From positions 310,001 through 374,000 of the forward strand of contig CAJHZI010000498.1 in the NCBI GenBank assembly GCA_905160935.1: DNA of 64,000 bases, given 5' to 3'. The stretch comes from Enchytraeus crypticus (Eukaryota > Annelida > Clitellata > Enchytraeida > Enchytraeidae). Positions 57,101-60,100 of the stretch are shown in pieces. Numbering within the stretch: the stretch's first letter is position 1; each line of letters opens with the position of its first letter. The position numbers were made by a program, and so were the translations under genes. The notes beneath the pieces are model-generated. The model was given only the letters and a program-made list of their open reading frames with translations. It did not search any database and was not told where the DNA came from.

Positions 57101-60100
57101 AGAAAAATGTTAACATTAGCTTTACCAGCGTTACTTAACGAGTGTAAAAACGAACAGTAAGTGTAAATGGGTATATTGGAATTGTCATTTGACAGTGTAC
57201 TAGAGAAATACTTTTGAGTGTATACTACACTTTATGTGTAGAAATTTGCGCAAATCCATTTATTAAATAACTATCATTACAATTCTCAACATTTAATTAT
57301 TTCTATTGCAAGTTTGTCCTGAGGTTCTTAGGTTTACGAATGAAGTTCTGCATTCTTCTACTCGCGTATTAGCGTTCAGAATAGATAAAAATAGAGTTCA
57401 TTTTACACCAAAAACCACGTCATATGCTAGTACAGAAGGAAAGTTATATAAAACAGTATTCCAAAAACAAATCATGCATATGTACATGTATATATGCATA
57501 TATATATATATATATAGAATTTCAAATCTCTTTCAAGCATTACAAGCAAATCAAACGAATATGTGAAACAGGGAGTTTCAGAACAGCTACTGAAGCAATC
57601 TTACTAAGTTCCTCTGAGAAACTGAATATTACCTACTTTTAATTAATAAATTGGGAAACTTTTCTAGTGAGAATACTTCTTAGTGTTCATAAAGTTAAAG
57701 TTCATAATGTCAATCTACAAGAATTTATAGCAATAGTTTTAAATAAAATTGCTTGTTCAATTTAATTTTCTCTTTGATCTCTGACCCTAGGCTTTTTCTA
57801 GTGCTTTCTGAATGAACGTTTGAATGTCTCAATAGCGTAGTGGTTAGAGGTGTTGATAACGTCATGAAGTTTTAAATGACAGATCCCATGGTAAATTGAA
57901 CCCTTGCTGGTTTGAATCCCAGCCGCACTGATCTGAGAGTAAAATCTTGGACATTCACTTTACTGGTTACATGGAAAATGGAATAAATTGCCTAACAGTT
58001 TAAACATGTGGTATTAAAAGTGATAGATATCAACCAATCAATAGTTGATAATTTCACTGTAATGCGTGTTTACTTTTTTCTGTTGCTGTTGAACTACTTG
58101 TAGTTGTATGTTACATCTGAGACGTCCCTAAGATTACCTTCAGATGAGAAATCATAAATGTCTTTATTTATATTTTTCTTTTGGGACTTGTGTAGCTCTT
58201 AGTTTTAGTATTTTTGAAATGTGTGTTGTAGATATATTATATCATTTGAAAAAAATGTGTGTTGTAGATATGTTACATCATTTGAAAAAAATGTGTGTTG
58301 TAGATATGTTACATCATTTGAAAAAAATGTGTGTTGTAGATATGTTATATCATTTGAAAAAAATGTGTGTTGTAGATATGTTACATCAAAAAAATGTGTG
58401 TTGTAGATATGTTAAAATGTGTGTTGTAGATATGTTACATCATTTGAAAAAAATGTGTGTTGTAGATATGTTATATCATTTGAAAAAAATGTGTGTTGTA
58501 GATATGTTACATCATTTGAAAAAAATGTGTGTTGTAGATATGTTACATCATTTGAAAAAAATGTGTGTTGTAGATATGTTACATCATTTGAAAAAAATGT
58601 GTGTTGTAGATATGTTACATCATTTGAAAAAAATGTGTGTTGTAGATATGTTACATCATTTGAAGGAAATGTGTGTTGTAGATATGTTACATCATTTGAA
58701 AAAAATGTGTGTTGTAGATATGTTACATCGTTTGAAGAAAATGTGTGTTGTAGATATGTTACATCGTTTGAAGGAAATGTGTGTTGTAGATATGTTACAT
58801 CATTTGAAAAAAATGTGTGTTGTAGATATGTTACATCGTTTGAAGGAAATGTGTGTTGTAGATATGTTACATCATTTGAGGGAAATGTGTGTTGTAGATA
58901 TGTTACATCGTTTGAAGGATATGTGTGTTGTAGATACGTTACATCGTTTGAAGGAAATGTGTGTTGTAGATATGTTACATCATTTGAAGGAAATGTGTGT
59001 TGTAGATATGTTACATCATTTGAAGGAAATGTGTGTTGTAGATATGTTACATCATTTGAAAAAAATGTGTGTTGTAGATATGTTACATCGTTTGAAGGAA
59101 ATGTGTGTTGTAGATACGTTACATCGTTTGAAGAAAATGTGTGTTGTAGATATGTTACATCATTTGAAGGAAATGTGTGTTGTAGATATGTTACATCATT
59201 TGAAAAAAATGTGTGTTGTAGATATGTTACATCGTTTGAAGGAAATGTGTGTTGTAGATATATTACATCGTTTGAAGGAAATGTGTGTTGTAGATATGTT
59301 ACATCATTTGAAGGAAATGTGTGTTGTAGATATGTTACATCATTTGAAGGAAATGTGTGTTGTAGATATGTTACATCGTTTGAAGGAAATATGTGTTGTA
59401 GATATGTTACATCGTTTGAAGGAAATGTGTGTTGTAGATATGTTACATCGTTTGAAGGAAATATGTGTTGTAGATATGTTACATCGTTTGAAGCCCCGGG
59501 TGCTACCATGAGACTCACTGAACTGGGATACTCTCATGCTATAGAAATGAATAAGGTACGCTATTGATATGTTCCTGCTGTGAATAATATGGCTATGAAA
59601 ATTTTTCAACAACATACCATAGCATTGCATATCGTTATTCTATCTATAACTGAACGTAAGATTAAATTATCTACCTATATTAAATTTTAGAAAAATTGTT
59701 CTTATGTAGGCCTATATGAACTGAAATAATTAACGGTGGAGGCAACTTTTTAGTATTTAATAATTACAGAGAATTATTGATAATATTTATTTTATTTCTG
59801 TATTAATGGCAGATAAAATTCACGCCCTAATTCTGATTTGTAGTACCAGCTCTGAGTTGCAGTTCTGCATTTCTGTAAAATTGAGTTTATCAGATTTAGT
59901 ATATAAGGTATGTGATGATTTAGTAGATAAGGTAAGTGATAATTTAGTATATAAGGTAAGTAATAGTTTAGTAGATTTATGTAAGGTATAGCAATTTAAA
60001 AGATTGATATGATATGATGCAGGAGTGCAGTGTATATGCCACAGTGTTCAACTCTCTCAACAGTTCAACTGAATGTCAGGTGTATTCCATTCTGACTGGG

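Follow-up and report, generated by a model that had tools for sequence, protein, structure and literature searches.

The 64,000-nucleotide stretch of DNA analyzed here (the window) carries exons 1–16 of a DPP8/9 gene on the forward strand (47696–63621); exons 17–19 were located by homology downstream of the window (locus L021), with a stop codon after exon 19 and a total of 19 exons. The 16-exon model has consistent phases and encodes 723 residues. Its product matches DPP9 chains of solved structures (E values of 8e-170 to 2e-169) and the Pfam families PF00930 (DPPIV_N), PF00326 (Peptidase_S9) and PF19520 (Dpp_8_9_N), and reaches 47% identity to metazoan DPP8/9 proteins (among the best 120 of 633 listed). 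Catalytic residues are presumably carried by GWSYGG and, in exons 17–19, by GLMDENVHF and NERHGIRS. The gene is intact and single copy in the 524-Mb genome, where 15 exon matches fall on one contig and two others lie elsewhere at 35–36% identity. The phases, structure chains and Pfam domains agree with the original prediction, which had recognized DPP8/9 and its exon 11 and had started that exon right after the TTGTAG at 59473; the 82-nt exon at 59474–59555 fits the model, phase included. Exon 10 (56643–56713) ends in the donor ACATCT/gtaagt, where the slash marks the splice junction. These and all further features of the gene lie on the forward strand.

Elsewhere in the window, we observed a retrotransposon reverse-transcriptase fragment (22873–23421) with at most 77% identity to listed proteins, and an open frame on the minus strand (5006–5349) that we take to resemble an immunoglobulin-domain exon of another gene. 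Searches with Rfam, at the gathering threshold, and with ARAGORN returned no match. In a phylogenetic tree, the window protein grouped with the annelid Lamellibrachia and four further sequences (bootstrap 95, SH-aLRT 96), and placement with lancelets (p-AU 6e-5) or with arthropods (p-AU 0.003) was rejected. We regard an annelid affinity as likely rather than settled because Owenia, the other annelid in the tree, does not join this group and the window protein sits on a long branch.

Exon 11 is preceded by a minisatellite whose unit contains a splice acceptor. Tandem Repeats Finder (TRF) reported a single array there, at 58217–59493, with a period of 36 nt and 36 copies, and we counted 36 TTGTAG acceptors, whose first exon bases range between 58232 (site 1) and 59474 (site 36), confirming the predicted number. 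The AG is kept in all 36. Each unit joins 16 intron-derived to 20 exon-derived bases, such that the first 20 nt of exon 11 are themselves the last repeat copy; the earlier description of a 36-bp unit laid over the junction was therefore right except for the exon part, which it had put at about 18 bases. The spacing between acceptors is exactly 36 nt in 33 of 35 units, and is 31 and 23 nt in units 5 and 6 (58376–58429). After TTGTAG, copies begin with an ATATG-like sequence, apart from ATATATT in the first and one other copy and ATACGTT in two. In ten units, including the last four, the exon-derived 20 bases are the same as in exon 11 itself, and distal units carry GAAAAAAATG where proximal units mostly carry GAAGGAAATG. 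To the left of the array lies a pyrimidine-rich intron end (58150–58231), with three AGs, just before 58196, 58203 and 58209, between the pyrimidine-rich stretch and site 1.

One lancelet mirage, a boundary-spanning array of the kind discussed below, is described as misassembled in a draft genome (PMC3087553), a point in favor of the idea that an assembler added the tandem copies. The 34 full units have a mean pairwise identity of 94% (16 bases before and 20 after the junction), but they comprise 13 distinct sequences divided into distal and proximal types, and the same structure recurs at twelve other junctions. In addition, the 3.05-Mb length of the contig and the assembly of 524 Mb into 802 contigs speak against a short-read artifact, and an assembly error is thus very unlikely. 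A search for dispersed copies of the unit across the 524-Mb genome gave two weak matches only (66% and 71%), both within other arrays, and dispersal was rejected. A separate array of 39- to 47-nt TTGTAGATATGTC units (locus L002, 1430–2476), part of which matches the exon 11 array at 66%, was observed; an exon beside it was looked for, and none was seen.

We then asked what in the sequence could distinguish the last copy. Acceptors were scored with a simple matrix built from this gene's other acceptors, which is weak, given that 10% of the window's 3602 AGs exceed 4.26. Array sites fell between 2.0 and 3.8 in 35 of 36 cases (58407 scored 1.4), with 3.2 for the last site and the maximum of 3.8 at site 1, tied with site 7; two AGs upstream of the array score 3.8 and 5.3. 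The last acceptor has an AG-free stretch of only 16 nt, the shortest of the gene's 15 acceptors, and a pyrimidine content of 33% at positions −20 to −3, also the lowest of 15, although its matrix score is not low for the gene. Between −15 and −45, no full yUnAy motif was found; partial matches there agree at only three of its four fixed positions. Folding of the last 298 nt was not better than that of shuffled sequences (z = +0.94), giving no sign of an RNA fold that would hide inner sites. None of these features thus singles out the last site, and, given the intervening AGs, the 16-nt AG-free zone and the low pyrimidine content, its use is explained neither by local strength nor by a strict first-AG scan that starts at the upstream stretch.

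The original prediction had objected that scanning for the first AG after the branch point would disfavor the last copy. This objection is weak, as three AGs precede the array and the AG-free zone covers just 16 nt; for the last site to be used, the branch point would have to lie within the array. Exons with distant branch points are described as having acceptors preceded by an extended region free of AG (PMC1431707), and by that rule a 16-nt AG-free stretch directs the search for the branch point into the array rather than upstream of it. Exon 11 resembles such exons in that a pyrimidine-rich stretch lies far upstream of the acceptor that fits the protein, but dozens of AGs intervene where theirs is described as AG free (PMC1431707), which places it outside this class. 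It also differs from NAGNAG acceptors, its sites being 36 nt apart (31 and 23 nt in two units) and not three.

Joining exon 10 to the last copy reads into ATATGTTACATCGTTTGAAGCCCC, and the resulting product has the same length across the exon 10/11 join as all of the best 120 of 633 homologs; joining it to inner copies gives ATATGTTACATCGTTTGAAGGAAATG and variants. The prediction that inner copies insert multiples of 12 residues is borne out for sites 7–35, that is, 29 of 35 inner sites, which are in frame, contain no stop and would add 12 to 348 residues. It does not extend to sites 1–6, where the units of 31 and 23 nt result in premature stops. Inclusion of the whole array as exon through use of the first AG was ruled out by stop codons and by homologs that have no insert.

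These open frames, together with the near-equal acceptor scores, would be expected if the array generated protein variants, whether by regulation or as noise, with inner acceptors often used to insert 12-residue multiples into the propeller. We consider this unlikely, as no insert occurs at the exon 10/11 join in the best 120 of 633 homologs (from other species), in-frame decoys are not favored elsewhere (12 of 38 at 12 other junctions), and the translated array used as a protein query scored 8000 candidates with none reaching an E value of 0.001. Slight leakage is nonetheless to be expected: exons from sites 33–36 would measure 82–190 nt, close to the 50–184 nt spanned by exons 2–16, so that sites 33, 34 and 35 may occasionally add 36, 24 and 12 residues.

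TDP-43 and CELF proteins bind UGUGUG-type motifs, and UGUGUG occurs within the copies. The array could accordingly control mRNA level, either because RNA-binding proteins assemble on the UG-rich copies and adjust inclusion or because sites 1–6 lead to premature stops and decay, with site 1 sharing the top score of the array. However, the fold of the last 298 nt is like that of shuffles, and similar arrays occur in unrelated genes with a frequency close to that of repeats in introns, making such control distinctly unlikely.

Exon 11 is not the only affected junction in the gene. A second junction-spanning array, with 3.2 copies of a 55-nt unit (62111–62284), covers TTGTAG/ATTACTGAGACTGC at the start of exon 14 (62267–62378). 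Its decoy acceptors at 62157 and 62212 score 7.5 and 6.0 compared to 5.9 for the real site, and both lead to a stop, which means that a functional protein requires the last copy; at the exon 13/14 join, too, the best 120 of 633 homologs have the same length as the query. A repeat of 9 nt, ACTGCATAT, extends across the exon 14 junction and suggests how this duplication may have begun, and TTTGAA is the sole sequence common at the exon 11 junction. Intron 11 contains a 24-nt tandem array (59894–59973) with decoy donors at 59908, 59932 and 59956 (AAG/GTATGT or AAG/GTAAGT) that score 10.5–10.7 compared to 7.0 for the real exon 11 donor, and their use would lead to a stop. Just upstream of exon 13, we also observed 7.6 copies of a 32-nt unit (61349–61593) with the acceptor-like stretches TGTGTGTAG and CTCTAG; this array does not span the junction. 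At the other junctions of exons 1–16, no copies of the 28-nt junction sequence were found within 3 kb (up to six mismatches), and the acceptor candidates of exons 17–19 had no junction copies. Among the gene's arrays with a unit of at least 20 nt, two of five span a junction compared to 1.85 expected by random placing, and enrichment at DPP8/9 junctions was therefore not found.

To place these numbers in a wider context, we surveyed myosin-head exons in the same genome. At least 81 hits were obtained (65 of 257 candidates scored), and 70 of the 81, all except the 11 weakest, were examined with 1.0–1.5 kb of flank, counting arrays with a unit of at least 15 nt. Arrays touched 7 of 60 hit ends in a first set and 12 of 80 in a second, compared to 6.6 and 9.3 expected from the intronic rate. 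The two sets together gave 19 of 140 compared to 15.9, with no clear enrichment of arrays at hit ends; as a hit does not always stop at an exon boundary, fewer than 140 true junctions were covered. Exon interiors had 8 of 4956 bases in arrays in the first set and 186 of 3699 in the second, where roughly 71 exon bases are repeated in L076 and the L062 hit begins within an intron. Junctions are thus neither clearly preferred nor avoided by arrays.

By visual inspection, 11 of the 19 touched ends (11 of 140 ends from 70 hits) are genuinely junction spanning, including four acceptors (L041, L045, L062 and L086) and seven donors (L030, L043, L051, L053, L076, L083 and L087). Eight ends were discounted: those at L029, L037, L071, L073, L088 (both ends) and L089 abut the exon or are intronic, and L070 was unclear. 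At the myosin junctions, we take the exon-proximal copy to be the one that continues the conserved protein, judging in part from Pfam matches. The closest parallel to exon 11 is a 40-nt array before a myosin exon (L086, reverse complement, 642–1025), with TTTTGCAG/GTAACCCATTGCTGG acceptors and six intact decoys of the type TTTTGCAG/GTAACCC. At the donor side, a 43-nt array follows a myosin exon with five decoy donors ATGGAG/GTAAGC (L087, 1131–1391), and a 135-nt duplication repeats exon bases together with the donor (L076, 1058–1320).

Over 13 junctions, the AG or GT is kept in 73 of 76 further junction copies, with one copy in L062, at −501, lying outside its array. At the 12 junctions besides exon 11, 12 of 38 intact decoys lie at a multiple of three from the real site, as by chance, although decoys within an array are not independent. 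No reading-frame constraint on decoys therefore shows outside exon 11, and for this reason the in-frame unit length at exon 11 looks like a coincidence.

Based on these results, we consider it likely that the array is a mostly neutral minisatellite that grew across the boundary of exon 11, a ‘mirage’, and that the exon-proximal copy is the one used, probably via exon definition. The array may have originated by tandem duplication of a short segment straddling the exon 11 acceptor and may later have grown by slippage or unequal exchange, the array itself remaining mostly neutral. Productive mRNA would take the last copy, as judged from conservation, which reports what a working protein requires and not what the cell uses. 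A plausible reason is that splice-site pairing across the exon favors the site closest to the exon body and to its donor. A 5'-to-3' scan would select the first acceptor and the first donor, whereas proximity to the exon body would select the last acceptor but again the first donor. The latter combination is the one required here, and this would favor exon definition as the selector of sites.

The array does not stand alone, a point on which the original prediction was incomplete: the same kind of structure is published in lancelets and, as shown above, has further cases in this genome. Lancelet mirages are described as tandem arrays over exon–intron boundaries in Adh3, the globins BflGb6 and BflGb9, PGBD5 and troponin C, affecting 5' or 3' boundaries, with many but not all units keeping AG or GT; the BflGb6 repeat joins an intron 3' end to the 5' part of an exon (PMC3087553, PMC3902484). 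The reported Adh3 data and globin RT–PCR suggest regular splicing (PMC3087553; also PMC3902484). Exon 11 shares the minisatellite-like duplication spanning the boundary (16 intron and 20 exon bases, with the last copy forming the exon start) and the retention of AG or GT (36 of 36 copies, and 73 of 76 further copies at 13 junctions), and in this genome, too, several genes are affected at acceptors and donors (two junctions in DPP8/9 and 11 of 140 myosin ends, by eye). The arrays differ in scale, with 3–6 units of 150–160 bp reported for BflGb6 and units of 10–72 bp for Adh3 compared to 36 units of 36 nt here, and in lineage, as the window protein clusters with an annelid rather than with lancelets; our frequency of 11 of 140 hit ends comes from one sampled family.

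Other known systems are less similar. The human IFI6 (6-16) minisatellite likewise supplies many splice sites at one exon, as indicated by the title of Turri et al. 1995, and two downstream repeat units are reported to be used (PMC4526556), but its copies are donors and those of exon 11 are acceptors. Intron gain via tandem repeat expansion at exon–intron boundaries, described for human segmental duplications and Cryptococcus (PMC2812944, PMC2395259), also involves repeat expansion over splice sites; the described cases yield new introns or repeats retained in exons, whereas no new intron is evident here. Among the papers listed in our literature search, we found no boundary-spanning array in an annelid; the one annelid paper among them describes minisatellites within earthworm metallothionein introns. 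The exon 11 array therefore belongs to a known kind, with an apparent novelty in its lineage and high copy number.

More broadly, we lean slightly toward the view that boundary-spanning minisatellites are pervasive in this genome, affecting about one in thirteen exon ends in one family, at donors and acceptors and independent of frame, with arrays extending across junctions as readily as they sit in introns, and with splicing tolerating up to dozens of near-perfect decoys by using the site nearest the exon body. Studies of how the spliceosome selects one of several equal sites close together usually rely on engineered duplications. This genome offers natural ones at both exon ends, in conserved genes of known expected product, where the number of intact decoys ranges from 1 to 35, and, if the pervasive reading is true, they would form a natural dose series for weighing first-AG scanning against exon definition. 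Such junctions are also a warning to gene predictors and short-read splice mappers, which may misread them. Finally, these findings suggest that mirages, known from lancelets, also occur in a distant animal lineage.
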